Part shown: piece after piece, positions 1,919 to 24,890 of the stretch
Numbering within the stretch: the first letter of the stretch is position 1
Layout of the letters: every line of letters begins with the position of its first letter
NCBI RefSeq assembly: GCF_003362805.1
Contig: NZ_QNQT01000001.1
Span: 186,001 to 250,000 of the forward strand
Direction of reading: 5' to 3'
Length of the DNA stretch: 64,000 nt
Source of the DNA: Neobacillus piezotolerans
GTDB taxonomy: Bacteria; Bacillota; Bacilli; Bacillales; Cytobacillaceae
Position numbers and translations under genes: made by a program
Notes under the pieces: model-generated
Seen by the model: only the letters and a program-made list of their open reading frames with translations
Databases searched by the model: none
What the model was told of the DNA's origin: nothing

Positions 1919-4900
1919 TTAATTGATTACAATCTTATGGGTTGTTGAATTGGTTGCACCTTTGTCGTCCGTAACTGTCAACGTGACGGTATAGGTGCCT
2001 TTCTTATTAAATGTGTGATCAACAGTCGTCCCGGTTCCGGTTGTTCCATCACCGAAGTTCCACTGATAGCTTACTATCGTTCCATCCGGGTCGCTCGATT
2101 GCGAACCATCGAATTTCGCAGCCTTTTTCATCTTGGCTGTTGCCTCGCCTTTGATTACTGCGATTGGCGCTTTGTTCTCTGCAGGAGGATCAACCTGGCC
2201 GCCGCCGGCAGTTACATACAACTTTCCTGGCGCGACTGCTTCAACTTGGTTCCCCGATTGATCTGCTACCCGGACTACGATAACGCCGCCTTCCATTGTA
2301 AGCGAAGCAGGAGTTGTGTAGGATCCTTCATAATGTCCAGGGGACGTTTCGGTCATTGTGATTCCATTGCCGCTGGAAGGCATCAATGGCAACTCAATCC
2401 GGAACGAAGCGTTAAGCCCTGGTTCACTGTCGAAGGATACCTGTACGGTTTCACCTGCACTAATGTGTACATCGGCAGCTGGTGAAATGTTTGTAATCTC
2501 TGGCGCGCTAAGATCAACAACTACATTACGAATAACAGTAGTTGTGTTGCCCGCGCGGTCGGTTGAGGTTACAGTAATCTCATTTTCACCGGCGTTGACT
2601 AGTATTTTGTGTGAGAACGTACCGTCGGCGTTCACTTTTACCGGTTGGCCGTTCACTGTTAGGTTATCAAAATGTTCATCGGTTGTTGTCCCTGTTACAT
2701 GAACCATTTCGACATTTGTTCGGTAATCCTGAACTGGTGCGGTAACATCAAGGGCCGGTGCTGTCTGATCCAATGTGACGGTAGTAGGCTCGGAACGATC
2801 GGAAATTTTTCCGTTCACAACTACTTCAACGGACAATTCGTTCGCACCCGCATGGAGCGTTGTCGGGATGCTGAACTTGCCTTTTTCAACAGTGCCAGTA
2901 CCAACCTGTTCTGTACCGTTGAACAGTTTCACTGTCGAACCATTTACTTGAGAAGTTCCGGTTACCGTAACATTTTCATCCTTTGTAAAGGAGCCGTTTG
3001 CAGGAGAAGTGATCACTGGCGCGCCAACAGGGTATTGGACAATCGCGCGGATCATGTAGTTCCCTTCGGCTGCAGGAGATTGGCTCCATGCGCCGCTGAT
3101 TCTTTGCCAGCTGCGTAAAGCATTCGTGCCGCTTTCATCCGTAGCCAACCCTGGTGTGTTAGGATTCGCGAATGTTTGGATATACACAACGTAGAAATCT
3201 CCTTCAATCATTACCGGTTCTTGGAATTTTACCGTTGTCCATGTGCCATCGCGTTTAGCCGTTCCGTTGAGTGGGCCCGCGAGTTGTCGGCCTGGTGAAC
3301 CATTGGCACCAGTAGCGTCATAGATTGCGTATTGGAATGCTGTACCGCCCGGAACCGGCCATTCTGTATCCCAGAAGCGGAACATTGCGCCTGTTACCTG
3401 CGCCGCGCCATTTTCAGGCGTCATGCGAACAGCCCAGGCATTGCCGGCTGCGTTCCATGCGCGTGCATTCTCAGCTGTACCGTCATCATATCCGATTGTT
3501 CCTTCAAATCCGATAAATGGTTTCAATGCTACATTCGCTTCAACTGATCCATTTCCTGTAACCGTGACAGTTGAATTCTTATTGTAGTATTGGTCGGCTG
3601 AAACCGCGAGTGTGTACGTTCCTTCGAGTACTTCAAGGGAGAATGCACCGTTTTGATCTGTTCTTACAGGTGCGATACGGGCATCTTCCATGACCATTAC
3701 AGTTGCATTCGCGATTGGTTCGCGGGATCTTTCATCCGTCACTACACCCGTAATGATGCCGTGTGGAATCGGTTCAAGTGTAAAGCTGACTGATGTATCC
3801 CTTCCGTCAACAATCGTGATAGGACGGGTTTGTGGATAGAATCCATAGGCGTCAGCGCGAATGTTGTAATCTCCGGCCATATGAATCATGCTAAAGCGTC
3901 CGTTACTTGCATCCGTTCTTGTAGAACGGCCAGTTTCAAGGACAGTAACTGTCGCATTGGCAGGCAAGCTTTGCAGCCCAATTCCGCCTTGTGGCTGAGC
4001 CGGCAATGCATCCTTTTCCGTTCTGGACAGTTTTACCGCTGGTGCTTCATCAGTTGGCTTCGGTTTAACCATTGCCTGGGAGTCACCTTCAACCGCTCTT
4101 TCGAACTTTTGTGGTGCTACAGATGCCAATACGGCAAAGTTATCGATATACCATCCGAGTTTTACGACACTGCCATCGGATGTAACTCGGAATCTTACCT
4201 GAACCTGCTGGCCCGCATAGGAGGCTATATCGTAAGAAACTGTCGACCAGTTCTTGCCGTTTGTTGAGTGGCTAAACATGCCAAGCTGGGTCCAGGTTGT
4301 TCCGCCATCTTTTGTAATTTCGACGTAGCCTTTATCGTAGTTTGTTTCCAGCTCATACCAGTGCGAGAATGCGAGTGTCGCGTTATTTACCTGTGATAGG
4401 TCGATAACCGGGGATACGAGCGAAAAATTGCTGCTGCTTTCGTAATTGCCGTCAAGATCGGTTCCCCATACATTTGGAGCGGATAGTGGAACAGGTGCGC
4501 CAGTGCCTGAAGGAGTACCGCGCTCCCACTCATCACGTGTACCGGAATGCGTCCATCCGTTATCCGTATTTCCATCAAAATTGTCGCTGTATATCGTTAC
4601 TGGAGCGGTAACTGAAACGGATACCTCGTTGGAGTTTCCGCTCTCGTTGCCAAAGTAATCCTTTGCTCTTACGACATAGAAATAGGTCTCACCATTGGCT
4701 GTGTTGGAATCTGAAAAACTATTTTCAGTTGTCGTTCCGATTTTTTCATAGCCGCTGCCTGAGACAGATGAACGATAAACATTGTATTCTTTGAAATCTT
4801 TATCAGCAACTGCTGACCAGTTAAGCGATACAATTCCCAGAGAATTAGCCCGGGCGGTTAAGTCTGCTGGAACAGCAGGTGCGACATCATCCGCTCCAAT

Positions 4901-7270
4901 AAGCTCCACATCATCAATATACCAGCCATCCCGTGTCCCGGAACCGTCGGTATGCAGGTTGAAAATGAGATAAACCTGTTCTCCTGCAAATCGTGATAGG
5001 TCAACCAATTGGTTTTTCCATCCGCCACTTGCCCCAGTGAAGGAAGCTAAAGAAACGAATTCATAATTGGTGGATTCCGTTGCTGCATACACGACGCCTC
5101 TGTCATAATTGGTCTCCAGGTTGAACCAGTGCTTGAAGGAGAGAAGTACGCCTCGATTGCTATCCAAGAGATCAATTGGCGGCATCATCATATAGGAGTT
5201 GGAATTGTTGAGATATTGACCGTTAAGTTTGGTTGCGATCAGCTTTGTGCCTGAAGCTGCCGAACCAGGGCCTCCTACAGGAACACCCCATTCCCAGGTG
5301 TTATTTGCTCCACCTGTTGTAAAGCCAGTAATATTTGTTTCGAAGTCTTGCATGTAACCAGGTTTAACACCATTTGAAACTTCGATTGAATACTTATTTG
5401 TTTCAAAACCGTTATTGCCGTAATCGTTGACCCGGATGTAATATTCCGTACCCGCCGTATGCACGAGGAAGTAAGGAATAGAGCCTTCATACACTCCGGC
5501 TTTGTAGTCGCCAGACGTGCGTGACATTGGAATGTATGTCCAGTGCGTGTTGCCTTTAATTCTGGCATACGCTTCTACTGTAACAACGCCAACATTATCG
5601 GATACACTGGCAGTGAATGGTATATCCAAGCCTGTATAGGCCATTGTTACAGGCGTGTGCTCAAGTACTGGCGGCTCGAAGTCATCTCCGGCGGTTGCCA
5701 CACGGCCGGATACTGAACCAAGACCGCTCAGAATGGAGCCTACAGCATCGGCGGCGTTGATTAATCCGCTTCCGTACCCGTTGTTCGGGCTTGTAGGGTA
5801 CTCGGCATCGGTTAATGGTATTGCTGTTGTTTGAATAATGTGTTCAAGTTGGTCAACCGTGAGGGATGAGTTTACTTGAAGCAGCAATGCGGCTAGCGCC
5901 GTTGTATGCGGGCCGGCCATCGATGTCCCGTTCCATCCGCCTTCATAGCCCCCGCCTGGTACAGAGGAGCGTACATTTACTCCTGGCGCGGATACTTCAG
6001 GCTTAATTTCTTGATAAGGAGACGGGCCCCTTAGTGAGAATGAAGCTACTTTGTTGTTGATGTCTGTTGCCCCTGTAGCGAATGATTCCGGATAGTTGGC
6101 GGGATTCGCTACCGACCCAGGGCCGCCTGGGTTGCCAGTGCGGACGTTTCCAGCTGAAAACTCAGGGAAGATTTGTGCCGCGCGCCAGGATTGGACCGTT
6201 GGCCGGAACCACTCGTCAAGGCCAGGGCCGCCGCCCCATGAGTTATTCACAACGTCTGGAGCCATTTCCGGATGTGGGTTGCCGTTTCGATCAATCGGAG
6301 CCATCAGCCATTGCGCACCACGTAAGATAATGTCATCCGTTGTGGATGGATTGAAAATACGGACAGCCATCCATTTTGCTCCGGGTGCGACACCGATTTG
6401 GTTCGTTCCGTTCGCTTCCGAACCAACCATTGTACCCATTGTATGGGTTCCGTGGCCATCCGTATCTACAGGCATGGACGCTCCGCTATGGGGATCAAAC
6501 CAGCTGAGTTCAGGATTGACGACATTGCCGTTAGCGTCGTAGCCACGCCATTTGCGCTGCAATGCAGGATGGGTTAAATCAACCCCTGTATCCAGATTCG
6601 CAACCACTACGCCAGTTCCATCGATACCCATTGCCCATGCTTCAGGCGCATGGACTTGATTGATGTTCCACTCAATATTGCTAGGCTGGATATCCGCGGT
6701 TGCAACCTTTTCCTCAGTAACCGCCGTCTTTTCCGCTTTATCTAGGAACCGCTCTTCGTTAGGAAGAATCTTGGCTACTTCAGCGCGTAAAGCGATCTTC
6801 TCCATAACTTCCTTCGTACTCGTTACAGCCATCGCATTTACGATGAAGAAGCTTTCAAAGCTTTTTACTTGACCCTTTTTTTGCATATTTTCTAAGTATT
6901 TTTCCAAACCATATTGTGTACGGGTTGCTGTTTCACGCAAAGAGGAAATAACAGCGTTACGCATCGCAAGCTTGGCAACGGCTGGAGTTTCTTTTTTCTT
7001 TAGGGATGCTTGATGAGCGTTTTTTGAAACAGTGTCAACATCTGCTTGTTCTTTCATCTTAATGAGGTAGGTTACGTATTCCTCATCCGTGAATTGTTTG
7101 GCTAGTTTAGGAGCGATTTTGTCAGCAACTAGTTGGGGTACGTTTGATTGAAGATCAACCTTTTGCATAGAAGCATTTCCTGTTGCATAAGCCGGGGCAA
7201 CGAGCGTTAGTGTAAGTACGAAAATTAGCCATTGAGAAACCCATTTACGCAATCTCTTGCTTTTTGCCAA
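1919..7270 (-). CDS. Very large secreted S8 (subtilisin-family) protease, bacillopeptidase F-like
   Basis: About 1,783 residues, longer than B. subtilis Bpr (about 1,430). The TTG at 7270 is chosen because AGAGGGAGAGG lies 6-7 bp upstream; an in-frame GTG at 7291 precedes that site. Order of parts: signal peptide (ending APAYA), an I9-like propeptide region to about residue 190, and the S8 catalytic domain. The catalytic triad is Asp227 (NLDTGVD), His273 (DGHGTH) and Ser450 (NGTSMAGP), with an oxyanion Asn in VNNSWGGG. Then come two Peptidase-M6/MAM-like beta domains separated by a fibronectin-III module, carboxypeptidase-regulatory-like repeats, Ig-like bacterial domains, and a C-terminal PKD domain (SSDPDGT, WNFGDG). 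No LPxTG or SLH anchor is visible, so it is probably released. It likely degrades extracellular protein; the beta modules suggest substrate or surface binding. Confidence 0.92.
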   Translation of the reverse strand: MAKSKRLRKWVSQWLIFVLTLTLVAPAYATGNASMQKVDLQSNVPQLVADKIAPKLAKQFTDEEYVTYLIKMKEQADVDTVSKNAHQASLKKKETPAVAKLAMRNAVISSLRETATRTQYGLEKYLENMQKKGQVKSFESFFIVNAMAVTSTKEVMEKIALRAEVAKILPNEERFLDKAEKTAVTEEKVATADIQPSNIEWNINQVHAPEAWAMGIDGTGVVVANLDTGVDLTHPALQRKWRGYDANGNVVNPELSWFDPHSGASMPVDTDGHGTHTMGTMVGSEANGTNQIGVAPGAKWMAVRIFNPSTTDDIILRGAQWLMAPIDRNGNPHPEMAPDVVNNSWGGGPGLDEWFRPTVQSWRAAQIFPEFSAGNVRTGNPGGPGSVANPANYPESFATGATDINNKVASFSLRGPSPYQEIKPEVSAPGVNVRSSVPGGGYEGGWNGTSMAGPHTTALAALLLQVNSSLTVDQLEHIIQTTAIPLTDAEYPTSPNNGYGSGLINAADAVGSILSGLGSVSGRVATAGDDFEPPVLEHTPVTMAYTGLDIPFTASVSDNVGVVTVEAYARIKGNTHWTYIPMSRTSGDYKAGVYEGSIPYFLVHTAGTEYYIRVNDYGNNGFETNKYSIEVSNGVKPGYMQDFETNITGFTTGGANNTWEWGVPVGGPGSAASGTKLIATKLNGQYLNNSNSYMMMPPIDLLDSNRGVLLSFKHWFNLETNYDRGVVYAATESTNYEFVSLASFTGASGGWKNQLVDLSRFAGEQVYLIFNLHTDGSGTRDGWYIDDVELIGADDVAPAVPADLTARANSLGIVSLNWSAVADKDFKEYNVYRSSVSGSGYEKIGTTTENSFSDSNTANGETYFYVVRAKDYFGNESGNSNEVSVSVTAPVTIYSDNFDGNTDNGWTHSGTRDEWERGTPSGTGAPVPLSAPNVWGTDLDGNYESSSNFSLVSPVIDLSQVNNATLAFSHWYELETNYDKGYVEITKDGGTTWTQLGMFSHSTNGKNWSTVSYDIASYAGQQVQVRFRVTSDGSVVKLGWYIDNFAVLASVAPQKFERAVEGDSQAMVKPKPTDEAPAVKLSRTEKDALPAQPQGGIGLQSLPANATVTVLETGRSTRTDASNGRFSMIHMAGDYNIRADAYGFYPQTRPITIVDGRDTSVSFTLEPIPHGIITGVVTDERSREPIANATVMVMEDARIAPVRTDQNGAFSLEVLEGTYTLAVSADQYYNKNSTVTVTGNGSVEANVALKPFIGFEGTIGYDDGTAENARAWNAAGNAWAVRMTPENGAAQVTGAMFRFWDTEWPVPGGTAFQYAIYDATGANGSPGRQLAGPLNGTAKRDGTWTTVKFQEPVMIEGDFYVVYIQTFANPNTPGLATDESGTNALRSWQRISGAWSQSPAAEGNYMIRAIVQYPVGAPVITSPANGSFTKDENVTVTGTSQVNGSTVKLFNGTEQVGTGTVEKGKFSIPTTLHAGANELSVEVVVNGKISDRSEPTTVTLDQTAPALDVTAPVQDYRTNVEMVHVTGTTTDEHFDNLTVNGQPVKVNADGTFSHKILVNAGENEITVTSTDRAGNTTTVIRNVVVDLSAPEITNISPAADVHISAGETVQVSFDSEPGLNASFRIELPLMPSSGNGITMTETSPGHYEGSYTTPASLTMEGGVIVVRVADQSGNQVEAVAPGKLYVTAGGGQVDPPAENKAPIAVIKGEATAKMKKAAKFDGSQSSDPDGTIVSYQWNFGDGTTGTGTTVDHTFNKKGTYTVTLTVTDDKGATNSTTHKIVIN

Positions 7271-7522
7271 TACATTTCCTCTCCCTCTCACTTAAAATTT
7301 TCTTTTTTAAAAACAGAGTAATAGACAGACCTCCTTTCTTTTAACAAGAGTAAAGGAATCTGAATATTTAGACAACATTAAAAAATATGCTTCTTTTCGT
7401 ATTTTGGAAGGATTTTCCCAATATGGTAAATGGGTACATTGTTATTGTAGTAGAAAGAAAATGAAACAACAGGTGAGTAAGTTTCAAAGAAGCAACAATA
7501 GCTTTTGGGAGGAGAAGGAGAA

Positions 7523-8368: not shown

Positions 8369-10879
8369 ATGAGTATGACTGAAAAAATCAACATTCTATT
8401 GGTAGATGACCGCCCTGAAAACCTTTTGGCTATGGAAGCAATTATTGAGCAAAGCGACTACCAAATAATTAAAGCCTTTTCTGGGGAAGAGGCCTTAAAG
8501 TATTTACTTAAGTTTGATTTTGCTTTGATTTTGCTTGATGTCCAAATGCCTGATTTGGATGGATTTGATACGGCCAAAATCATTAAGGCGCGGGAGAAAA
8601 CCAAAAATGTTCCAATTCTATTCATAACAGCGAATAATTTGGATTCTGAGTATATTTTTAAAGGGTATTCAGTAGGCGCTATCGATTATATTTTAAAGCC
8701 ATTTGATCCTTTTCTCCTGAAGGCAAAAGTAGATGGGTTTGTCGAGATTTATAGATTAAATCAGCAGATTCTTCAACAATCCATTCGGTTAAAGGAGAAA
8801 ACAAAGGAACTGCAAGAAATTAATTTGGAATTGGAAAATTCAACTTCTAAATTGAGAAAATCGGAAGCTTTGGCAAATGTAATAAGCGAAACCTCTCTTG
8901 ATACGATGATCAACATAAATGAGTCAGGTTCAATAGTAAAGGTAAATCCAGCCATTTATAAAATGTTTGGTTATGAAGAACACGAAATCCTTGGCGAAAA
9001 AATTTCTTTATTATTTTCATATCAATCAAACCGAGCAATAAAAGAAATTTTAAAAGCGATCGAACGGTTGGAAACTATTATTGGCAATGAAAATAATAAA
9101 GAGTTAACTGCTTTAAGGAAAGATGGCACAGAATTCCCGGTTGAAATACAAATAGGGAAAAGGTTTGTTCAAAGTGAGTTCATTGTGGCTGTTACAATTA
9201 GGGATGTTACAAGTAAGAAAAAATATGAAAAAAACTTGAAGCATATGGCGTATCACGACTGGTTAACCGATCTTCCCAACCGCAGATATTTTACAAAACA
9301 ATTACGGGATATGATTTCAGAGGCGAAACAATCAAATGAACAATTGGCTCTCCTGTATATTGATATGGATAGTTTAAAATATATTAACGATTCTCTGGGA
9401 CATATTATAGGCGATAAAGTGATTCGGGAATTTGCTGAAAGGCTGAAAAAATTTATAAATAAAGAAGACTTCATTGCAAGAATTGGCGGAGATGAATTCA
9501 ATATCATTTTAAGCAAAACAAATAGAGAGCAAGCAATCGATATTGCAGAAACAATTTTGGAAGATTTCACAACGCCGATCTTTTTTGATACATACGAATT
9601 GTTTATTACAGCCTGCATTGGGATAAGTATTTTTCCTTTCGATGGTGAAGACTCCATTACATTAATGAAAAATGCTGATGCTGCTTTATACCGTGCTAAA
9701 CAGCAGGGGAATCACAAATACAAAATGTTTCATTCCGGAATTAATATGCAGTCCTATCGGTCTTTTATTTTGCGAAATGATCTTCGGAAGGCAATTGAAA
9801 GAAATGAGCTGAAATTGGTTTACCAACCGCGTATAGATATAGCAACAGGCAGGGTGACCAGTGCTGAAGCGCTTCTACGCTGGCAGCATTCAGATTGGGG
9901 ATTAATTTCTCCCCAAGAGTTTATTCCGCTTGCGGAAGAAAGCGGGCAAATTGTAGAAATAGGAAACTGGGTCCTTGAAGCTGTATGCCAACAAATTCAG
10001 GACTGGAAAGAAGCGGGGTTGCCTATCGTTCGAATCGCTGTTAACTTTTCCGCGCAGCAATTTTTACAAAAGGACCTTTTGAAAACCTTTGCTCAGATTA
10101 CGAAGGAGAGAGAAATTAGTCCAAAAATGCTGGAAGTGGAAATTACAGAAACGGTGATTATGGGGAATGAGTCCAACATTATAAAAACATTGAACGGCTT
10201 AAGGGAAATGGGAATCTGGATAAGCATAGATGACTTCGGCACAGGCTATTCCTCACTTAGCTATTTAAGGAGCCTGCCGGTACAGTCGTTAAAAATTGAC
10301 AGGTCTTTTATAATAGACGCTTCAAATTGCATTCCTTTAATTTCAACGATTATTTCACTCGCCAAAAGTATGGATTTAACTGTAGTGGCTGAAGGAGTGG
10401 AAACAGAAGAACATTTGAATTTATTAAGAGACCTGAAGTGTGATGAATTCCAGGGATACTTAGTAAGCCCTCCAATATTTCCAAAGGAGTTCGAAAGCTT
10501 TCTAATAAATATTGGGCCAGTAATAAACCATAAAGGTCTAATTCAGCCAGTTGCTGAAAAAAAACAGGATAAAACGGTTCAAACATACACCCCAATTGAA
10601 AAGCAAAGTGCAAATTTAAATAAGGATATACTGACTGCCGCTTTAAATCGGACAAGGGATGTGTATATGATTTCAGCCAGGGAAATGGACGTCTTCGAAT
10701 TACTTGTTGAGGGATTGAGCAATAAAGAAATTTCCGAACGGTTATTTATTAGTGAACATACAGTTAAAAACCATATTACGCGTATTTTTCAAAAGCTGAC
10801 TGTAAGTGACCGTTTGCAAGCCATGGCAAAACTCTATCAAGCCTGCATTGAAGAGGGCAAAAGCCATCAATTACATTAA
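8369..10879 (+). CDS. Response regulator with PAS, GGDEF, EAL and C-terminal LuxR-type HTH domains
   Basis: 836 residues. Domains in order: REC (1-125, phospho-acceptor Asp57 in LLDVQMPD, Lys in ILKPFD), coiled linker, PAS (about 165-285), GGDEF (about 295-455, intact RIGGDEF at 373-377), EAL (about 465-710, E500-A-L, then DDFGTGYSS, KIDRSF and AEGVET), and a LuxR-family HTH (about 772-832, GLSNKEISERLFISEHTVKN). Both catalytic signatures look complete, so it could make and degrade c-di-GMP, while the terminal HTH should bind DNA. ATG 8369 follows AGGGGTG. It is first in an operon with the hybrid kinase (22-bp gap) and CheR, so the kinase is the likely phosphodonor. Combining all five domains is unusual; single c-di-GMP enzymes normally lack a LuxR domain. 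Confidence 0.93.
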   Translation: MSMTEKINILLVDDRPENLLAMEAIIEQSDYQIIKAFSGEEALKYLLKFDFALILLDVQMPDLDGFDTAKIIKAREKTKNVPILFITANNLDSEYIFKGYSVGAIDYILKPFDPFLLKAKVDGFVEIYRLNQQILQQSIRLKEKTKELQEINLELENSTSKLRKSEALANVISETSLDTMININESGSIVKVNPAIYKMFGYEEHEILGEKISLLFSYQSNRAIKEILKAIERLETIIGNENNKELTALRKDGTEFPVEIQIGKRFVQSEFIVAVTIRDVTSKKKYEKNLKHMAYHDWLTDLPNRRYFTKQLRDMISEAKQSNEQLALLYIDMDSLKYINDSLGHIIGDKVIREFAERLKKFINKEDFIARIGGDEFNIILSKTNREQAIDIAETILEDFTTPIFFDTYELFITACIGISIFPFDGEDSITLMKNADAALYRAKQQGNHKYKMFHSGINMQSYRSFILRNDLRKAIERNELKLVYQPRIDIATGRVTSAEALLRWQHSDWGLISPQEFIPLAEESGQIVEIGNWVLEAVCQQIQDWKEAGLPIVRIAVNFSAQQFLQKDLLKTFAQITKEREISPKMLEVEITETVIMGNESNIIKTLNGLREMGIWISIDDFGTGYSSLSYLRSLPVQSLKIDRSFIIDASNCIPLISTIISLAKSMDLTVVAEGVETEEHLNLLRDLKCDEFQGYLVSPPIFPKEFESFLINIGPVINHKGLIQPVAEKKQDKTVQTYTPIEKQSANLNKDILTAALNRTRDVYMISAREMDVFELLVEGLSNKEISERLFISEHTVKNHITRIFQKLTVSDRLQAMAKLYQACIEEGKSHQLH

Positions 10880-10901: not shown

Positions 10902-13900
10902 ATGAAAATCAAATCAAAAATGCTATTGGGGCTTAGTTCCAAACCTATTCTAGTTGTCCTTATAATTATAATAGGTTTGCTGGAAGTTACGAGTATTAAT
11001 AAATTGAATAAAGTTACTATAAACAATTATGAAATTTCTTTATTGGCCGAAGAAGTGCATAGGGATTTTAAGAATGAGGCCATTAGTTTAAGAAATATTA
11101 TCGTATTTACTAATGATGAATTGAGGCAAAAGGAATTATCCCACTTACAGATAAAAAATAATTCGTTAAATACAAAAATAGTTTATCTTGAACGTATGGT
11201 GCAAACAAAAGAACAAAGAGAAATTATTGAAGACATTCAAATGACTAACAGGGAATTTAACTTATATAGAAGCAAGGTAATCAGCCTTGTTTCAGAAGGA
11301 AAAAAGGAAGAAGCATCCACTTTAATCAGTGAAGAAGGGCATGCCATTCAAGAAAAATTAACTGCTGACCTCACTTTGCTTACCAATAGTTTACAAGAAA
11401 ACTTGACTGCATCATATAATAATGCCACGAAAAATATCCAGAAACTTATTGTTGTTTTGAGCTTAATCGCCTTATTAAGCATTATTCTTTCGGCCAGCTT
11501 TATTGTGAGAACCGTATGGGGCATTGCGTTTCGCTTAAGCAACGTATCTTCTATCATGAGCGACATTGCTAACGGAAAACTGGATTTAGGAACCCGGATT
11601 AATGTAAATTCCAAAGATGAAATAGATGATGTCGCAAAAGCGTTCAATCATTTAGCGGAATCCCTTGAGCAAAAAGTTAAACTTGAAAAAAGTTTATTAT
11701 GGAACAAATCGAATATAGCTGAAATTAATGCGGAATTAGTAGGTTTACATGGTTTGAAAAACCTGTCGGAAGCCTTCCTGAAAAAAGTTGCACCTTTAAT
11801 GGAGGCCTCCATGGGTAGTTTTTATGTAAAGGAAATGAATGATTCCACTAGCGAAACCCGCTATACACGATTTGCCTCATATGCAATGAATAAAGACTAT
11901 CAGGATACCTTTACCTTGGGGGAAGGGCTGATTGGGCAAGCAGCGGAAGAGAAATCTTCCATACTTCTTACCAAAATCCCTCCTCAGTACCCCAAAGTGA
12001 AATTCGGGGTTGGTGAGATGTCCGTGATGAATCTTTATGTGGCCCCTTTAAAAGTTGAAGATAATGTTGTTGCCATTTTGGAATTGGCTTCACTAAAACT
12101 TTTTACCAAAGAACATCAAACATTTTTAGAAGAATTAATAAAACTAGTGGCGATTATCCTTGAAAAAGAAATGGATAGAATTCGATTGGCCAGGATATTG
12201 GAGGAGACACAAAGTTTGATGGAAGAAGTTCAGGTGCAATCTGAAGAACTTCAATCACAGCAAGACGAACTAAAATTGATAAACGAAGAGTTGGAGGAAC
12301 AGACAATAGTACTCCGCGAATCTGAGGTGAAACTTCAGGTTCAACAGGAAGAACTTGAACAGACGAATTTTGAATTAAAGGAAAAGACTCTCATATTGGA
12401 AGATCAGAATAAGAAGTATGCTTTGAAAAACAAAGAACTCGAAAATGCCAGAAAACTACTCGAGGAAAAAGCAAATCAGCTTGCGATAAGTTCAAAATAT
12501 AAGTCTGAGTTTCTAGCAAATATGTCGCATGAATTAAGGACCCCGCTAAACAGCTTGCTTATCCTATCAAAATTATTGTCGGAGAACCGTGATGGAAATC
12601 TTACAGAGAAGCAAGTGGAGTTTTCTAAAACAATCCATTCTTCCGGGGACGATTTATTATCACTCATTGACGATATTCTTGATTTATCGAAGGTTGAATC
12701 TGGGAAAATGAATATCCAGCCTGTCCAAATGAAAATGCAGTCTATTATTGAAGTACTTGAATCCCGATTCCAGCCATTAGCGAATGAAAAAGGATTGAAA
12801 TTTACAATTATCCTTAAGGACGACGCGCCTTATACATTTTATACGGATGAAAAACGCTTGCTTCAAGTATTGAACAATTTATTATCCAATGCATTTAAAT
12901 TTACTGATAAAGGAGAAGTAAGGTTAGAGATTAGCTCCACTTCTAATGCAATAAATGGCATCGAATTTAAGGTAATGGATACGGGAATCGGGATTGCGAA
13001 GGATAAGCATGACCTCATCTTCGAGGCGTTTCAACAAGTGGACGGCACAACCAGCCGGAGATACGGGGGAACAGGGTTGGGCCTTTCGATTTGCAGGGAA
13101 ATGGCAAATTTATTGGGAGGCCGTATTCGTGTAGATAGTGAAGAGGGTAAAGGAAGTACCTTTATGTTCAGTTTGGAAGAATATAACCCACAAATACAAA
13201 ATGGGCGCGGTTCAGAGGGAAAAGAGGAAGTGGCGGCGGGTTTGGAAACTTCCAATGTTGATGTAAATACCGAAATAACTGCATCGCAACCCGTTCATCC
13301 AAATAGAAAGATTAACGCCTACAATGGACCTAGGGACCAAGTTAAAAGAATTTTAATCGTTGATGATGATAAAAGGCAGCGTAATGCTTTGATGGAATTG
13401 ATAGGAAATATGAATATTGTCATTAAAGCTGTCTCTACTGGCAAAGAAACAGTGGAAGAATTGAAAGTCAATCAATTCGACATATTGATTATGGATTTAG
13501 GATTAACCGATTCAGATGGATTTGAAATACTGAAAAAAATAAAAGAGAACAGTGATAACGATCAATTAAAGATAATCATCTATACGGGTAGGGACCTATC
13601 TTCAAAAGAAGAAATGGTTCTAAATCAATATGCCCACACCATTATCATTAAAGATAATATGGCGCCTCAGCGGCTAGTGGAAGAAATTAAGATACATTTA
13701 AATAATTTTAAAACCGATACTGTCCAATCCGAATCATTTGAGGATGTATCGAATAATCCTTACCCTCGGCTGAATGGGATAAAGGTTCTGCTAGTTGATG
13801 ATGATGTTCGGAATGTTTTTGCAATCTCAAGTTTTCTGGAACAGTATGGGGTTACGATTGCCTTTGCCGAAAATGGCCGTGAATGTCTTCAATTAATGAA

Positions 13901-14177
13901 CACCAATCCTGATTTTGATTTAATTTTAATGGATATAATGATGCCCGAAATGGATGGTTATGAAACAATAAAAGCTATTAGGGCTATGGGTGATTTTGAT
14001 TCATTGCCAATTATTGCTTTGACTGCCAAGGCGATGAAGGAAGACCGAGAGAACTGTATGGAAGCTGGCGCGTCCGATTATATTGTAAAACCATTCAACC
14101 CTGAGCAATTAATCTCGTTAATACAAGTATGGCTTTATCCTCAAGAAGGTAATAAAAATGGATTTGACAAAAACTGA
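10902..14177 (+). CDS. Hybrid sensor histidine kinase with HAMP, GAF and two receiver domains
   Basis: 1,091 residues from the ATG at 10902, which follows GGGAGCGGG; an upstream in-frame ATG at 10806 lies inside the previous gene. Parts in order: TM1 (about 13-30), an extracytoplasmic helical domain of about 150 residues (4HB/CHASE3-like), TM2 (about 180-205), HAMP, GAF (about 265-420), a long Glu/Gln-rich coiled coil, HisKA (MSHELRTP, His543), HATPase_c (DTGIGI, GGTGLGLS), REC1 (Asp865, MDLGLTDSDG) and REC2 (Asp1011, MDIMMPEMDG, Lys in IVKPFN). It reads on into cheR with a 20-bp overlap. The layout resembles RsbK of the B. cereus group, a hybrid kinase methylated by a linked CheR protein. 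The ligand is unknown. Confidence 0.9.
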   Translation: MKIKSKMLLGLSSKPILVVLIIIIGLLEVTSINKLNKVTINNYEISLLAEEVHRDFKNEAISLRNIIVFTNDELRQKELSHLQIKNNSLNTKIVYLERMVQTKEQREIIEDIQMTNREFNLYRSKVISLVSEGKKEEASTLISEEGHAIQEKLTADLTLLTNSLQENLTASYNNATKNIQKLIVVLSLIALLSIILSASFIVRTVWGIAFRLSNVSSIMSDIANGKLDLGTRINVNSKDEIDDVAKAFNHLAESLEQKVKLEKSLLWNKSNIAEINAELVGLHGLKNLSEAFLKKVAPLMEASMGSFYVKEMNDSTSETRYTRFASYAMNKDYQDTFTLGEGLIGQAAEEKSSILLTKIPPQYPKVKFGVGEMSVMNLYVAPLKVEDNVVAILELASLKLFTKEHQTFLEELIKLVAIILEKEMDRIRLARILEETQSLMEEVQVQSEELQSQQDELKLINEELEEQTIVLRESEVKLQVQQEELEQTNFELKEKTLILEDQNKKYALKNKELENARKLLEEKANQLAISSKYKSEFLANMSHELRTPLNSLLILSKLLSENRDGNLTEKQVEFSKTIHSSGDDLLSLIDDILDLSKVESGKMNIQPVQMKMQSIIEVLESRFQPLANEKGLKFTIILKDDAPYTFYTDEKRLLQVLNNLLSNAFKFTDKGEVRLEISSTSNAINGIEFKVMDTGIGIAKDKHDLIFEAFQQVDGTTSRRYGGTGLGLSICREMANLLGGRIRVDSEEGKGSTFMFSLEEYNPQIQNGRGSEGKEEVAAGLETSNVDVNTEITASQPVHPNRKINAYNGPRDQVKRILIVDDDKRQRNALMELIGNMNIVIKAVSTGKETVEELKVNQFDILIMDLGLTDSDGFEILKKIKENSDNDQLKIIIYTGRDLSSKEEMVLNQYAHTIIIKDNMAPQRLVEEIKIHLNNFKTDTVQSESFEDVSNNPYPRLNGIKVLLVDDDVRNVFAISSFLEQYGVTIAFAENGRECLQLMNTNPDFDLILMDIMMPEMDGYETIKAIRAMGDFDSLPIIALTAKAMKEDRENCMEAGASDYIVKPFNPEQLISLIQVWLYPQEGNKNGFDKN

Positions 14178-15012
14178 CAATAATCATAATTCATTGGATG
14201 CCTTGGAAAAGATAGAAATTGACTTGCTTTTACAAGCAATTTATTCATGGTGCGGGTATGATTACCGAAATTACTCTTATAATTCAATTAGGAGAAGAGT
14301 TTGGAATAGGGTCCACGCTGAAAAATTGACAACTATTTCAGGACTGATTGAAAAGGTATTACATGACTCTGCCTGTTTAAAAAGGCTAATTTCCGATTTC
14401 TCTATAAATGTTACAGAGATGTTTAGGGATCCTTTGTTCTTCAAGGAATTTAGAGAAAAGGTAGTACCAATACTTCGAACTTACCCCTCAATTCGCATTT
14501 GGCATGCGGGATGTTCGACGGGGGAAGAAGTTTTTTCTATGGCAATGCTATTGCACGAGGAAGGTATTTATGAAAAAGCCAAAATATATGCCACAGATAT
14601 AAACTCTGACGTTCTAAAGGCGGCCAAATCAGGCGTTTTTTCGCTGGAAAATATGAGGAAATACACGAATAATTATATTGCTTCCGGTGGGGAGCGATCC
14701 TTTTCGGATTATTACCAAGTTACTGGTGATGGAGTGAAATTTCATTCGTTTTTATCAAAGAATATCGTGTTCGCGCAGCATAACTTGGTAACCGACCGTT
14801 CCTTTAATGAATTTCATGTGATTTTCTGCAGGAATGTTTTAATCTATTTCAATAAAGATTTACAGCAAATGGTACACAATCTTTTTTACGAAAGTTTAAG
14901 CATGCTTGGATTCCTTGGATTAGGTGATAAGGAAACGATTTCTTATACCGAAAAAGCGGAGTGCTTTGAGAATGTCAGCCATGGACAAAAGCTTTATAGA
15001 AAGATTAGATAA
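14158..15012 (+). CDS. CheR-type protein-glutamate methyltransferase
   Basis: 284 residues. It has the CheR N-terminal helical part, then FSINVTEMFRDP, the SAM-binding segment IWHAGCSTGEEVFSMAM, and FCRNVLIYF, all diagnostic of CheR. It uses S-adenosylmethionine to methylate glutamates on a signalling partner. The gene overlaps the kinase by 20 bp and no chemoreceptor, CheA or CheB is nearby. The expected substrate is therefore the adjacent kinase, as for RsbM and RsbK of B. cereus (inference). A terminator follows 12 bp after the stop, ending the three-gene operon. Confidence 0.92.
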   Translation: MDLTKTDNNHNSLDALEKIEIDLLLQAIYSWCGYDYRNYSYNSIRRRVWNRVHAEKLTTISGLIEKVLHDSACLKRLISDFSINVTEMFRDPLFFKEFREKVVPILRTYPSIRIWHAGCSTGEEVFSMAMLLHEEGIYEKAKIYATDINSDVLKAAKSGVFSLENMRKYTNNYIASGGERSFSDYYQVTGDGVKFHSFLSKNIVFAQHNLVTDRSFNEFHVIFCRNVLIYFNKDLQQMVHNLFYESLSMLGFLGLGDKETISYTEKAECFENVSHGQKLYRKIR

Positions 15013-15024
15013 CGATTATTAATG

Positions 15025-15051
15025 AGGACCTATCACAAAGGTCCTTTTTTT
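15025..15051 (+). terminator. Rho-independent terminator of REC/kinase/cheR operon
   Basis: The 7-bp stem AGGACCT/AGGTCCT with a 7-nt loop is followed by seven T residues. Confidence 0.88.
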
Positions 15052-15306: not shown

Positions 15307-17511
15307 ATGAGTATGCTTAAAACGTTATTTAAACCTGAAAAAAAAATTACCTGCAAATCTACTCGAACAGTAATGGGTAGACCTATGGATACCACAGGTG
15401 GTTTTATGGATACGGCTAATAACGCCAAAGATAATGAAACAATTTTAAAAATAGAAAAAAGCTTGGATATGGCCCACGAAGTAGCAAATATAGCTAGTTG
15501 GGATTATGAAACTGATCGTGATTATGTCTTTGGATCTGAAGCATTGTTTTCCATACTTGGTATGAATCAGCATAAGATGATAGACACCACTTATCCAAAT
15601 ATGCTTGAGATGGTTCTAGAAGATGACCGTAATGTGTTTGACTATCATTTCCAGAATACCAAGAAGACTGGGAAAAGAATGGAGCTTAAATTTAGGGTCA
15701 AGCGGGCCGATGGTACGATGATAACGGTACAACTGAGAGCAGAGGCTATAAAAGACGAAAATGGTAAGGTATCCCGGATCTTTGGGGTTTTGAGGGATAT
15801 TTCAAATGATCTATTGAAAGAAACCAAATTGAAAGAAAGTGAAGAGAAGTTAGAGAAGATTGCAAGCAGCCTGGATGTTGGTATATGGTCATATGACTTT
15901 GAATTAGAACGAATGGTGTATGTTTCACACGGGGTTGAGGCGATAACCGGTGAAAGAAATGAACTTTTGCTATTGGGTGAAAGAAAATGGAAGGATTATA
16001 TACATCACGAAGATTTAGAAAAATATCAAAGCAACTATAGTAAACTCCGACAAGCCAAAACAATTATTCACCAATATAGGATAATTGATGTGTATGGGAT
16101 TGAGAAATGGATAGAGGATCGGGTATTCCCAATAAGCAACTCAAGAGGGGAACTTATTAGACTTGATGGAATTGTGCAGGATATTAGCGAAAGAAAATTG
16201 CTCGAAGAAAAAATGAATTATTATGCCTTCCATGACAATTTAACTGATTTGCCAAACAGGAGAAAGTTGATTGAAGTTTTAACCGGAATGGTATCATGTC
16301 ATAATAAATTTTCTTTATTGTATATCGATTTGGATATGTTTAAAAATGTAAATGACCGTTTAGGGTCCAGAATTGGGGACCAGCTCCTCCAAGAACTTAC
16401 TAAACGGCTAACCGCCAAATATACTAATTTAGGGGAGTTCTATCGAATAGGTGGAGATAAATTTGCGCTTATTTTAAGACAAATGACCGAACCTTCCAGA
16501 TTAAACTTAATTGGAAGGGAGATTATTGATTCAATTAGACAGGTTTTTTATATAGAAGGGTTTGAAATCCATATTACAGCAAGTATAGGAATGAGCATCC
16601 ATCCTACAGATGGACAAACAGTAGAGGATTTAGAATTGAACACAGAGGTTGCTTTACGGAGGGCTAAAGAACTTGGAAAGAATAGGCTGCAGCTTTATAC
16701 GGAGAGCCTAAGTATTGAAACGTTTAAATTGTTTTCTTTGGAAAGTGATTTAAGAAAGGCCATATTACTGGAAGACTTTATATTGCATTATCAGCCAAGA
16801 GTAAATACTTTAACGGGCGACGTAGTGGCTGCCGAGGCACTCATACGATGGAATCATCCCTTATTTGGGTTGATTTCTCCTGCCGAATTTATACCCATAG
16901 CTGAAGAAAGCAACCTGATAGATCAAATTAGTTTCTGGGTGATTGAACAAGTTTGCAAGGTACAAAGACAATTGATTCAAAGCGGAGATAACATAGTTCC
17001 AGTTTCAGTGAATCTGTCAGCAAAAACCATAATGAGAGCTGATTTGATTCCAACCATTCTTAATTATTTGGAGAGATACGGAATCGAGCCAAATTTATTG
17101 GAAATTGAGATTACAGAAAACACGATGATTAAAGCGGAAATGGCAGCTATATCTGCAATCGAAAAGTTAAAAGAAATCGGCATTGCAATTTCATTGGATG
17201 ATTTTGGAACAGGTTACTCTTCTATCAGCTATTTAAAAAAGTTTAAGGTGAATTATATAAAAATAGATCGGTCATTTATTACAAGTATGCTCGTGAGTCA
17301 GGAAGACGCACGCATAGTAGAATCAATTCATTTATTAGCGAAAGGATTTAATTTAAAGGTAGTGGCCGAAGGAGTGGAGACTACAGAGCAATTAAAAAGG
17401 TTAAAACAATTAAATTGCCATTATATACAGGGCTATTTATTTAGTAAGCCAATAGATGAAGAACAATTTTTAAAGATTATATCGAACAATTCTAGACTTC
17501 TATATGCTTAA
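15307..17511 (+). CDS. PAS-PAS-degenerate GGDEF-EAL protein, probable c-di-GMP phosphodiesterase
   Basis: 734 residues, soluble. PAS1 (about 55-175, with a PAC motif FGVLRDISND), PAS2 (about 178-300, DGIVQDISER), GGDEF-like domain (about 310-470) and EAL (about 475-725). The cyclase signature reads RIGGDKF (382-386): Lys replaces the catalytic Glu, so cyclase activity is doubtful and the domain may only bind GTP. The EAL half is complete (E510-A-L, EITENTMI, DDFGTGYSS, KIDRSF, AEGVET), which predicts c-di-GMP hydrolysis. ATG 15307 has GGGGG 8 bp upstream; ATG 15313 with AAGGA is an alternative start. It stands alone between the kinase operon and a FapA-like gene. Confidence 0.9.
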   Translation: MSMLKTLFKPEKKITCKSTRTVMGRPMDTTGGFMDTANNAKDNETILKIEKSLDMAHEVANIASWDYETDRDYVFGSEALFSILGMNQHKMIDTTYPNMLEMVLEDDRNVFDYHFQNTKKTGKRMELKFRVKRADGTMITVQLRAEAIKDENGKVSRIFGVLRDISNDLLKETKLKESEEKLEKIASSLDVGIWSYDFELERMVYVSHGVEAITGERNELLLLGERKWKDYIHHEDLEKYQSNYSKLRQAKTIIHQYRIIDVYGIEKWIEDRVFPISNSRGELIRLDGIVQDISERKLLEEKMNYYAFHDNLTDLPNRRKLIEVLTGMVSCHNKFSLLYIDLDMFKNVNDRLGSRIGDQLLQELTKRLTAKYTNLGEFYRIGGDKFALILRQMTEPSRLNLIGREIIDSIRQVFYIEGFEIHITASIGMSIHPTDGQTVEDLELNTEVALRRAKELGKNRLQLYTESLSIETFKLFSLESDLRKAILLEDFILHYQPRVNTLTGDVVAAEALIRWNHPLFGLISPAEFIPIAEESNLIDQISFWVIEQVCKVQRQLIQSGDNIVPVSVNLSAKTIMRADLIPTILNYLERYGIEPNLLEIEITENTMIKAEMAAISAIEKLKEIGIAISLDDFGTGYSSISYLKKFKVNYIKIDRSFITSMLVSQEDARIVESIHLLAKGFNLKVVAEGVETTEQLKRLKQLNCHYIQGYLFSKPIDEEQFLKIISNNSRLLYA

Positions 17512-21978: not shown

Positions 21979-23277
21979 ATGACTGGCAGCTTTGTAAAAG
22001 AACTAACCCCACTCCTGCTTGAATGGCGGCGGTCGTTGCACAAACTTCCCGAATTGGGTTTCCTGGAGTACATAACAACATACCGGGTCGGCAGGTTGCT
22101 GGAAGAGATGGGCTTCACCCTCCATATTGGAAAAGACGCGCTGAACGAGGATTCACGGCTTGGATTGCCGGATAATCAGTTCATAGAGGAAAAAGAAAGA
22201 CAGGCTTCCGAGTGGGGGGTCGAGAATGAGTGGCTCGAAAAAATGCGTGGCGGAAATACTGGCATAGTCGCAATCTGGGATACGGGGAAACCGGGCGACC
22301 ATGTCGCATTCCGCTTCGACATTGACGCACTTCCGATAAAAGAATCAACGGGCGACAGCCACTTTCCTTCGACGAACGGATTCGTTTCAGGTGAAAACAA
22401 TGTTATGCACTCTTGCGGGCATGATGGGCATACAGCCATCGGACTCGGAGTCGCTAAATTCATTTTGTCAAACAGTGATTCATTAAAAGGGAAATTCACA
22501 CTCCTTTTCCAGCCTGCCGAAGAGGGCGGACGCGGAGCGAGGGCGTTGAGGGACAAAGGCTGGCTAGATGATGTTGACTATTTTTACTCAGGGCACATCG
22601 GGATTCATTCCTTGCCAGTCGGAACGATTGCCGCTTCTACGGAAGGATTTCTTGCTTCCGTCAAATACGATGTCACTTTTAAAGGGATATCATCCCACGC
22701 CGGGATGCATCCGGAAAAAGGAAGAAATGCACTCTTGGCTGCCGCTACCGCCGCCACGAATCTATACGCGATTCCTCGGCACCATGATGGAATTACAAGG
22801 GTTAACGTCGGCAGGCTTATCGCGGGCAGCGGGCGCAATATCATTCCGGAAGACAGTTACATGGAAATTGAAGTCAGGGGAGAAACGCAGGAAATTGGCG
22901 ACTACATGGCGATACATGCAACCCGGATCATAAAAGCTGCGGCCGAGATGCATGATGTGTCCTTTGTGATTAAGCCGGCCGGTATAACCGAGGTTCTTGT
23001 ATGCGATGAGGAGCTGATTCCAAAAATTCAGGAATGGTGTTCAACGAGCGAGTTTGTAAAGGAAGTACTGCCATCTGTCACGGTCGCCGGTTCAGAGGAT
23101 GCGAGCCTGCTGATGAACAGGGTTCAGGAGAGGGGCGGGAAAGCAACCTATATTCTTTTTGGGACAAAACTTAATCATCCGCACCATCACCCTGAATTTG
23201 ATTTTGAGGAAGAAGTTTTACCGGTTGCTGTTGATGCCTTTATCAGTATCATAAAAGGCGGCTCATCCAATGACTAA
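21979..23277 (+). CDS. abgA: M20 amidohydrolase, p-aminobenzoyl-glutamate hydrolase subunit A-like
   Basis: 432 residues, close to E. coli AbgA (436). Metal and catalytic motifs of the M20 family are present: HSCGHDGHT, QPAEEGGRG, the dimerisation/lid region KGISSHAGMHPEKGRNAL, and a C-terminal HPHHHPEFDF. An insertion between residues about 50 and 100 (GLPDNQFIEEKER) is typical of AbgA rather than of simple N-acyl amino acid hydrolases. It is followed by AbgB-like and AbgT-like genes, so the set probably imports and cleaves p-aminobenzoyl-glutamate or related folate breakdown products or acyl-amino acids. ATG 21979 follows AAAGGAG. Confidence 0.85.
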   Translation: MTGSFVKELTPLLLEWRRSLHKLPELGFLEYITTYRVGRLLEEMGFTLHIGKDALNEDSRLGLPDNQFIEEKERQASEWGVENEWLEKMRGGNTGIVAIWDTGKPGDHVAFRFDIDALPIKESTGDSHFPSTNGFVSGENNVMHSCGHDGHTAIGLGVAKFILSNSDSLKGKFTLLFQPAEEGGRGARALRDKGWLDDVDYFYSGHIGIHSLPVGTIAASTEGFLASVKYDVTFKGISSHAGMHPEKGRNALLAAATAATNLYAIPRHHDGITRVNVGRLIAGSGRNIIPEDSYMEIEVRGETQEIGDYMAIHATRIIKAAAEMHDVSFVIKPAGITEVLVCDEELIPKIQEWCSTSEFVKEVLPSVTVAGSEDASLLMNRVQERGGKATYILFGTKLNHPHHHPEFDFEEEVLPVAVDAFISIIKGGSSND

Positions 23278-23338
23278 AATATGGGCCTTTGCAGGGAAAG
23301 AAGCTGCTGGCAAGGAAGATTTAGCGCCCGAACGGTGA
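23270..23338 (+). CDS. Possible 22-residue frame overlapping the abgA stop
   Basis: ATG 23270 overlaps the last codons of abgA and opens MTKIWAFAGKEAAGKEDLAP, stopping at TGA 23338. It has no independent ribosome binding site and would depend on coupling. It fills part of a 150-bp gap that is otherwise empty, in an operon whose other junction is tight, so it may be a relic of a lost gene. Confidence 0.2.
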   Translation: MTKIWAFAGKEAAGKEDLAPER

Positions 23339-23427
23339 TGGCCAGGGGGTTCTTTGGTCACTAGAAGAATAGTTAGTTCGGCATTGAATGCGTATCATTA
23401 TTTTTATTAAAAAATAGGAGGGATTGG

Positions 23428-24864
23428 GTGTCCAGCAACTTTGTAAAAGACTACCTGTCTAAGAAAAAGAAAGATTTCGAAAGGATTAGCGAGTACATTT
23501 ATTTCCATCCCGAAACGAGATTCGAAGAGTACGAGTCCGCGGAATTTTTAGCAGCGGAATGTGAAAAAGCTGGTTTCCAGGTTGAAAGGAACGCAGGCGG
23601 TATCGATACAGCCTTTGTTGCCACTTACGGAAGCGGCGCTCCTGTCATCGGGTTCCTTGGGGAATTCGACGCCCTGTCCGGCCTCGGCCAGGAACCGAAT
23701 AAAACAAGCTATGAGCCAACGGAAAAAAATGTCGGCCACGGCTGCGGCCATAACCTGCTAGGCACGGGCGCTTTCGCGGCGGCCTGCGCGGCCAAAAAAT
23801 TCCTCGAAGACAATGGCCTACCGGGAACGGTCAAATTTTTTGGCTGTCCTGGTGAAGAAGGCGGTTCGGGGAAAACGTTTATGGTCAGGGAAGGCGTCTT
23901 TGACGGCGTCGATGCCGCTTTGACATGGCATCCATCCCCGGCGAACTGCATCATGAGCCTATCAAGTCTGGCAAACTATCAGGTATATTTCCGCTTTAAG
24001 GGGATATCTTCCCACGCGGCGAATTCTCCCCACCTCGGCCGGAGCGCGCTTGATGCTGTCGAGCTGATGAATGTGGGCGTAAATTACCTGCGTGAACACA
24101 TTATCCCAGAAGCTAGAATCCATTATGCGGTCACGAATACCGGCGGGATTTCTCCGAATGTTGTCCAGGCAAATGCCGAAGTCCTTTATTTGATCCGCTC
24201 GCCGAAGGTCAAGCAGGTCGATGAGATTTATAAGCGGGTCTGCAAGATTGCCCAAGGCGCGGCGTTGATGACGGAAACCGAGCTTACAATCGAGTTCGAT
24301 AAAGCGTGCTCCAATTATATCCCGAACCGTAGTTTGGAAAAGATTTTATACGAAAGCCTGCAAGAAGCCGGCATCGAAAAGCCGGACGAAAATGAAATCG
24401 CTTACGCGGAAAGCCTTTGGTCCACATTGTCGGAAGGCGAACAAGAAAGCTATCTAGATATTTTAAGAGGATTTGGCTACAAAGGCGACGGCAGCGAGTT
24501 TGAGGGAAAATACCTCGCCGAAACGATATCGGAATATGAACAGAGTGACGGCATTCTTCCGGGTTCGACCGATGTATCGGATGTAAGCTGGGTGGTACCG
24601 ACAGCCCAGGTGACAACATCAACATCGGCGCTTGGCACCCCGCTCCACACTTGGCAAATGACGGCCCAGGGAATTAGCAGCTATGCACATAAAGGGATGC
24701 TCCGCGCGGCGGAAGCAATGGCCCTGGCGGCGATTCGGCTTTTTAAAAACAAGGAAGAGCTTGAGCCGGTAAAACAGGAATTCAAGAAGTTCCAGGAAAA
24801 GAATCCTTACACATGCCCAATTCCAGGACATGTCCATCCGTCGAAAATACAAATCCATTCATAA
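23428..24864 (+). CDS. abgB: M20 amidohydrolase, p-aminobenzoyl-glutamate hydrolase subunit B-like
   Basis: 478 residues, close to E. coli AbgB (481). It starts with GTG 23428 behind AGGAGG (23417-23422). M20 motifs: GEFDALSGLGQ, GHGCGHNLLGTGA, CPGEEGGSGK, FKGISSHAANSPHLGRSALDA, and a late GSTDVSDVSW segment characteristic of AbgB-type enzymes. AbgA and AbgB work together as a heteromer in E. coli to split p-aminobenzoyl-glutamate into p-aminobenzoate and glutamate; the same gene order here supports that role. The exact substrate in this organism is not shown by sequence. Confidence 0.87.
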   Translation: MSSNFVKDYLSKKKKDFERISEYIYFHPETRFEEYESAEFLAAECEKAGFQVERNAGGIDTAFVATYGSGAPVIGFLGEFDALSGLGQEPNKTSYEPTEKNVGHGCGHNLLGTGAFAAACAAKKFLEDNGLPGTVKFFGCPGEEGGSGKTFMVREGVFDGVDAALTWHPSPANCIMSLSSLANYQVYFRFKGISSHAANSPHLGRSALDAVELMNVGVNYLREHIIPEARIHYAVTNTGGISPNVVQANAEVLYLIRSPKVKQVDEIYKRVCKIAQGAALMTETELTIEFDKACSNYIPNRSLEKILYESLQEAGIEKPDENEIAYAESLWSTLSEGEQESYLDILRGFGYKGDGSEFEGKYLAETISEYEQSDGILPGSTDVSDVSWVVPTAQVTTSTSALGTPLHTWQMTAQGISSYAHKGMLRAAEAMALAAIRLFKNKEELEPVKQEFKKFQEKNPYTCPIPGHVHPSKIQIHS

Positions 24865-24890
24865 TCAAGCCATAAATCTAGGGGGAAACC

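Follow-up and report, generated by a model that had tools for sequence, protein, structure and literature searches.

In the 64,000-nucleotide stretch of the Neobacillus piezotolerans genome analysed here (hereafter the window), a single gene encodes an 836-residue response regulator that carries a receiver (REC), a PAS domain, the GGDEF and EAL domains of cyclic di-GMP (c-di-GMP) turnover and a C-terminal LuxR-type helix-turn-helix (HTH). Our comparisons suggest that this regulator is probably the output of a conserved three-gene phosphosignalling cassette, in which it is joined by an RsbK-like membrane hybrid histidine kinase and an RsbM-like CheR methyltransferase. These two co-conserved partners, overlooked in an earlier note on this DNA, are likely to give the regulator its input.

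The earlier note had described the gene as one frame of five domains with an intact phospho-acceptor D57, GGDEF motif (residues 373-377), EAL domain and LuxR HTH, and this description held. The open reading frame (ORF) begins with ATG and runs for 836 codons plus a stop with zero internal stops, and Pfam places REC, PAS, GGDEF, EAL and the GerE/LuxR HTH, in that order, each over its cut-off (Table 1). The receiver pocket is complete (D13, D14, D57, T87 and K110), and the EAL domain retains all nine positions that we take, from solved EAL enzymes, to be catalytic (E500, N559, E591, E594, D621, D622, K642, E675 and Q695). The description needs one refinement: the active-site motif of the GGDEF domain is present, and its product-inhibition site (I-site) reads NKED, not RxxD, the arginine having been lost. 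That the C-terminus is truly an HTH was borne out by the Pfam GerE match and by an AlphaFold model (14-row alignment; mean per-residue confidence, pLDDT, 78.9; predicted template modelling score, pTM, 0.39) with helices at residues 746-766, 770-780, 785-792, 796-810 and 815-835 and block-mean pLDDT of 84-93 across residues 751-830; because the pTM is low, the placement of the domains in this model is unreliable. The closest folds in the PDB include the GGDEF-EAL proteins PA0575 and MorA and the PAS-GGDEF-EAL protein PA0861, all three solved with GTP or c-di-GMP bound, and also LapD, which is a receptor. For the regulator, none of the best 25 of 141 NCBIfam matches was an equivalog above its cut-off. 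A fusion made by frameshift or assembly error, which the earlier note had raised as a risk, was ruled out: the REC-to-HTH frame is continuous in 27 other distinct homologues, that is, in 28 distinct members. These 28 LuxR-type members, the window included, form the regulator alignment used below, from which L149 (which repeats L035), L160 and L155, whose regulator frame is broken, were left out.

The regulator gene looks like the head of a three-gene operon, as the spacing is tight (the kinase gene starts 22 bases past the regulator stop), the cheR frame and the end of the kinase gene share 20 bases and a terminator-like hairpin lies behind cheR. The hairpin pattern occurs 5 times in the region against 5.6 expected by chance, and the main support for this terminator is its position. 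The order regulator, kinase, CheR recurs at 28 of the 29 loci compared (the window, L031-L041, L143-L148, L150-L158, L161 and L162), the genera of L031-L041 being Bacillus, Neobacillus, Alkalihalobacillus, Oceanobacillus, Ureibacillus, Lysinibacillus and Paenibacillus. Decay or sequencing error may have touched two of these loci, with the regulator frame broken within the receiver in L155 and kinase matches in two frames in L161. The exception to the order is L037 (Paenibacillus barcinonensis), where the regulator stands alone. D57 is retained in 27 of the 28 aligned regulators, and its sole loss is again in L037 (D57 to Ser, together with T87 to Ser and D14 to Glu). Loss of the phospho-acceptor where kinase and CheR are gone is what phosphorylation of D57 by the neighbouring kinase would predict, although L037 is a single case.

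The kinase and CheR resemble a known pair. According to PMC4574943, RsbM of Bacillus cereus methylates RsbK on its signalling helix (S-helix), and methylation plus the kinase's REC hold RsbK off; RsbK is built of HAMP, GAF, S-helix, HK, CA and REC, it neighbours a CheR-type methyltransferase without a partner methylesterase, and phosphate is considered more likely to reach RsbY directly than by a relay through a histidine phosphotransfer (Hpt) domain. That RsbK and CheR are associated in genomes had been observed before, as a later paper restates (PMC12848376). The cassette kinase likewise has HAMP, GAF, S-helix, HisKA, HATPase and a C-terminal REC beside CheR, with a match to the 4HB_MCP model instead of CHASE3. 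All 37 kinases aligned, 27 from the cassette and 10 from other kinase-CheR pairs, carry five S-helix glutamates (E441, E442, E448, E449 and E456); the alignment omits L161 (kinase in two frames) and the kinase-less L037. No CheB was found among the seven window genes scanned by Pfam, the other loci and the genome not having been searched for it. The window genome also holds an RsbK-RsbM-RsbY-like layout of its own (L194, contig C12, 3729-8910), which consists of a one-REC hybrid kinase, CheR and a REC-SpoIIE gene on the opposite strand; the window kinase is 34% identical to this kinase over 922 columns, and the CheR proteins are 56% identical. Compared with RsbY, a REC-PP2C protein, the cassette regulator is REC-PAS-GGDEF-EAL-LuxR, and the cassette order is regulator-kinase-cheR. 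Nothing at the locus pointed to sigB, although no search aimed at such a link was made.

Regulators of related kinase-CheR pairs point to a common receiver with different outputs. In eight related pairs of non-RsbY type, the regulator REC is 50-64% identical to that of the window and the outputs are histidine kinase (HK), GGDEF or GGDEF-EAL. At 20 further kinase-CheR loci, hand-picked from 121 genomes (of 397) in which the CheR search had a match, the adjacent regulators were typed with custom hidden Markov models as REC-PAS-HK (11), REC-HK (3), REC-PP2C (4), REC-GGDEF (1) and a relic (1), with Pfam confirmation for L194, L198, L207 and L211 only; SpoIIE was Pfam-confirmed in two of the REC-PP2C four and the other two were judged from size and place. 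Since the receivers of the non-RsbY regulators are this similar across differing outputs, the sequences indicate that the kinase-CheR front end and the receiver are shared and the output is swapped.

Within the regulator family, conservation is uneven. Mean pairwise identity over the 28 regulators (figures that omit the HTH-less L159) is 79.5% in REC and 71.1% in the HTH, 58.7% in GGDEF and 55.8% in EAL, 47.3% in PAS (14 members only, the domain being absent in the other 14) and 17.0% in the linker at residues 712-764; the L146 regulator is without the first part of REC. The recognition-helix stretch SEHTVKNH is invariant in all 28. The GGDEF motif is altered in five members (L038, L147, L148, L156 and L162) and the nine-position EAL set in four (L035, L144, L147 and L162), so that one or the other is altered in seven, both in L147 and L162, and both sets are intact in 21. 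The EAL signature letters, which lie outside the nine-position set, read EVL, EIL, ESL, EAT or EAI in seven members, and the I-site RxxD is retained in 22. All seven enzyme-altered members retain the REC pocket and the recognition helix, and kinase and CheR stand behind each. In L147, GGDEF has become GSSAF and several EAL catalytic positions are altered, with REC, HTH, kinase and CheR retained; this is perhaps a natural enzyme-dead regulator. Because conservation is highest in REC and HTH and the enzyme motifs are altered in seven of the 28, it would seem that the family's constant output is DNA binding, and that c-di-GMP turnover is a usual but dispensable one. The emphasis of the earlier note, on a c-di-GMP enzyme that also binds DNA, should thus probably be reversed. 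Enzyme catalysis does seem to matter, given that 21 of the 28 members retain both motif sets.

The architecture is not common in the order, a point for which the earlier note had asked for a survey. At least 17 of 397 genomes of the order, across 10 families, hold a match that extends to the HTH end of the model, and in the phylum at least one of 398 genomes passed E <= 1e-190, the window's own; these frequencies are lower bounds, two candidates having been scored per genome. The nearest 61 genomes, its own included, hold four with an HTH-reaching regulator, two of them five-domain and two (G013 and G036) without PAS. A scan of genome contigs returned at least 80 loci, of which 32 were examined for reading frame and 18 by Pfam, and among the matches listed the cassette also lies on two Paenibacillus contigs beyond the 10 families. 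Regulator identity is mostly 50-63%. A search with CheR (up to six scored per genome) recovered the same 17 genomes, with CheR identity of at least 69%, and one extra genome (G030), whose CheR is 78% identical over most of its length and belongs to a cassette relic (L193); in G125 there is a 71-residue CheR fragment, 75% identical, with internal stops. With 17 of 397 genomes spread over 10 families, the architecture is rare yet widely spread. The LuxR-type members and the relic form one group in the CheR tree (support 100/99, in a midpoint-rooted tree whose bootstrap was not fully settled), and this grouping fits a single origin of the fusion.

A working mechanism can be proposed, in which every step past the sequence is our inference. 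By analogy with B. cereus RsbK-RsbM, CheR would methylate the S-helix glutamates and the kinase would be kept off jointly by this modification and its own receivers, until a stimulus at its 4HB/HAMP/GAF part lifts the restraint. The kinase would then pass phosphate directly to D57 of the regulator. Phosphorylated regulators may pair through REC and the long helix behind it, and pairing may gather the LuxR HTH domains on DNA and simultaneously set the GGDEF-EAL block. This block is probably mainly a phosphodiesterase, in which GGDEF either regulates in response to GTP or is a weak cyclase that its product does not inhibit. A single signal would in this way have two effects, a direct one on transcription throughout the family and, in most members, a c-di-GMP change, which could be read by the nine c-di-GMP-I riboswitches of the genome.

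Two characterized systems are functionally close. VieA of Vibrio cholerae, as presented in the accessible part of PMC4352251, combines a REC and a C-terminal HTH with a c-di-GMP phosphodiesterase domain and is phosphorylated by a hybrid kinase whose gene lies in the same putative operon; the window regulator resembles it in having a REC with D57, an intact EAL between REC and HTH and a C-terminal HTH. The same part of that source names no GGDEF or PAS in VieA, and the window regulator has both; VieS carries an Hpt and the operon has VieB, while in the cassette there is no Hpt, the kinase has two receivers and the third gene is cheR. The earlier note had proposed a one-protein link between second messenger and gene expression. 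The presence of a receiver, an enzyme pair and a DNA-binding domain in one chain makes such a link possible in principle, but the combination has a precedent in the REC-EAL-HTH protein VieA (PMC4352251, same part). In Pseudomonas putida, according to the available part of PMC6849547, cyclase activity of the GGDEF and EAL protein CfcR needs REC phosphorylation and the CHASE3/GAF hybrid kinase CfcA, so that here too a hybrid kinase with GAF is paired to a GGDEF-EAL response regulator; a linked CheR, which the cassette has, is not mentioned in that part. The window system resembles VieSAB and CfcA-CfcR functionally, yet it is a member of neither VieSAB, as it has no Hpt, no VieB and extra GGDEF and PAS domains, nor RsbKMY, as the regulator is different and the kinase has two receivers. 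In the open-access literature searched, no paper was found that names a GGDEF-EAL-LuxR regulator or the cassette.

Several observations weigh against the cassette model and the mechanism built on it. The cassette kinase ends in two receivers and RsbK in one, and the regulator REC is only 31-33% identical to those of two RsbY-type proteins. The regulators of L159 and L160 are REC-PAS-GGDEF-EAL proteins with no HTH; they belong with the same type of kinase and CheR, their REC is 61-62% and their GGDEF and EAL 34-42% identical to the window's, and their gene order is kinase-cheR-regulator, unlike that of the cassette. High identity in REC and HTH may partly reflect the ordinary pace of those folds, the figures having no control family, and the 28 regulators share kinship, which makes the motif changes non-independent counts. 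L037 retains the GGDEF letters and all nine EAL positions (an N replaces D332 within its GGDEF domain), which shows that the enzyme part may persist after the input is gone, the phospho-Asp having been lost there. No Hpt domain was found in the window kinase by Pfam or genome-wide at E <= 1e-3, but this search may be insensitive, the presence of a CheA not having been checked. Phosphorylation may not reach EAL here, since the VieA phosphodiesterase activity is reported to be independent of it (PMC5498567), and the net direction of the enzyme may be either, since the CfcR cyclase needs phosphorylation. Finally, a k-mer search for a common operator in 26 of 30 upstream regions (L153, L154, L155 and L159 left out) found nothing clearly above shuffled maxima.

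Other explanations would assign the parts of the regulator differently. It could be a c-di-GMP-gated transcription factor, in which the GGDEF-EAL block senses c-di-GMP or GTP, its occupancy controls HTH binding and phosphorylation is a second input. The ligand-bound PA0575, PA0861 and MorA structures and LapD among the nearest folds speak for this, as do the seven enzyme-altered members, whose intact REC pocket, recognition helix, kinase and CheR are what one would see if the block were still in use without needing to catalyse. Retention of both motif sets in 21 of 28 members argues the other way, the HTH sits on a low-confidence, unconserved linker, which speaks against tight coupling of EAL to HTH, and L147 has also lost residues probably needed in ligand binding; we therefore consider a gated factor unlikely, if worth keeping in mind.

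We give still less credence to the idea that the HTH is a protein-contact part or a passive remnant and that the protein is nothing but a phosphodiesterase or cyclase under REC control, in the manner of CfcR, which to our knowledge has no C-terminal HTH. The HTH-less regulators of L159 and L160 fit such a protein, and CfcA-CfcR is a case in which the cyclase activity of a GGDEF/EAL regulator depends on a CHASE3/GAF hybrid kinase (PMC6849547); against it, the HTH ranks second among the domains in conservation, with a recognition-helix stretch invariant in 28 of 28 members, and L147 has kept it despite the loss of its GGDEF motif and several EAL positions. Ordinary domain shuffling, a chance fusion in one lineage with no shared function, is hardly tenable. 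Rarity (at least 17 of 397 genomes in the order and one of 398 in the phylum) is what it would predict, but the cassette is found in 10 families and on two Paenibacillus contigs, with both partners at 28 of 29 loci and regulator identities mostly of 50-63%, and this conservation has largely refuted it already. The reading that we prefer remains the phosphosignalling cassette with the regulator as its output.

The window genome has 12 GGDEF and six EAL matches, two of the six EAL being within this stretch, where a PAS-PAS-GGDEF-EAL protein is encoded next to the cassette proper (Table 1); a second GGDEF or EAL gene was present in the fetched flanks of 20 of the 29 cassette loci, with flanks of differing lengths and no chance level. 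Of the nine c-di-GMP-I riboswitches of the genome, one (L217) lies about 110 bases ahead of the gene for FliM and a FliN-like gene (flagellar switch genes), one (L216) precedes a short ORF with prepilin peptidase and TadE-like genes behind it, and one precedes a transglutaminase-like gene. Rfam found no riboswitch ahead of the window regulator. Among 31 loci scanned (including L149, a repeat of L035, and the HTH-less L159 and L160), only L036 (3096-3178) and L143 (2361-2443) have a c-di-GMP-I riboswitch just ahead of the regulator, with further ones elsewhere in L143 and L159; given this position, c-di-GMP would feed back on regulator synthesis in L036 and L143. An element like TTAACACTAT (at most one mismatch) occurs in L034, L035, L039, L144 and L161, by eye in an inverted arrangement in some loci, and is absent in the window. 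A sigma-70 promoter scan was uninformative, with 16 matches against 27.8 in shuffles.

Table 1. Features of the regulator gene, its cassette and related elements (window positions, except for the relic, which is numbered within locus L193)
Feature	Position	Strand	Basis or remark
REC-PAS-GGDEF-EAL-LuxR response regulator, 836 aa	8369..10879	+	ORF, Pfam, 27 other homologues aligned
Receiver (Response_reg, PF00072), aa 9-121	8393..8731	+	Pfam 86.7 bits, cut-off 30.2; phospho-acceptor D57 = 8537-8539
Long helix linking REC with PAS, aa 114-173 (60 residues)	8708..8887	+	AlphaFold, moderate confidence
PAS (PAS_9, PF13426), aa 180-281	8906..9211	+	Pfam 58.5 bits, cut-off 27
GGDEF (PF00990), aa 294-449, GGDEF letters 373-377	9248..9715	+	Pfam 157.9 bits, cut-off 23.8
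EAL phosphodiesterase domain (PF00563), aa 469-702	9773..10474	+	Pfam 250.4 bits, cut-off 31.3
EAL-HTH linker, aa 721-746, poorly conserved	10529..10606	+	pLDDT under 50 (AlphaFold)
LuxR-type HTH (GerE, PF00196), aa 769-819	10673..10825	+	Pfam 68.1 bits, cut-off 23.5
RsbK-like hybrid histidine kinase, 1091 aa, 4HB_MCP-HAMP-GAF-signalling helix-HisKA-HATPase-REC-REC	10902..14177	+	Pfam, comparison
Kinase S-helix, aa about 426-530, putative CheR substrate	12177..12491	+	Kinase alignment
RsbM-like CheR-type methyltransferase	14158..15012	+	Pfam PF01739, PF03705
Terminator-like hairpin then T run, just 3' of cheR	15024..15046	+	Pattern match
Neighbouring PAS-PAS-GGDEF-EAL protein, 734 aa, outside the cassette proper	15307..17511	+	Pfam
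Cassette relic L193	6444-8296		CheR 78%, fragments of PAS and GGDEF/EAL, no kinase seen

Other features of the window lie outside the cassette. Upstream, on the minus strand (1919-7291), is a gene for a 1790-residue subtilase with MAM, glucodextranase-B, carboxypeptidase-regulatory-like and PKD domains; no match to it was listed in the flanks of 34 loci (E <= 1e-10, part of the comparison above 120 bits only), some of which overlap and some of which have short flanks. An AbgT-type transporter gene flanked by three M20 peptidase genes occupies 21979-28825, and an S-adenosylmethionine riboswitch (52824-52931, minus strand) lies ahead of a gene for a pyridoxal phosphate enzyme of Cys/Met metabolism, with a homoserine dehydrogenase gene further along.

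The cassette joins two designs known separately, the methyltransferase-restrained kinase of RsbK-RsbM and the DNA-binding, c-di-GMP-related regulator exemplified by VieA. A bolder view is that it represents a distinct class of signalling device, in which a methylation-gated kinase, chemotaxis-style but CheB-less, drives a single regulator with two targets, DNA and the c-di-GMP pool, and c-di-GMP in turn acts back on this regulator through its GGDEF-EAL block and, in L036 and L143, also through a riboswitch; we put this forward tentatively and regard it as rather doubtful. The kinase-CheR module may be a reusable front end, with PP2C, HK, GGDEF, GGDEF-EAL and GGDEF-EAL-LuxR as its outputs. The enzyme-altered members with intact REC and HTH amount to a natural experiment that could tell if the c-di-GMP block serves as enzyme, sensor or spacer. 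In Bacillales other than the usual models, the cassette is a candidate for connecting some external stimulus with transcription and with the change from motile to sessile life.

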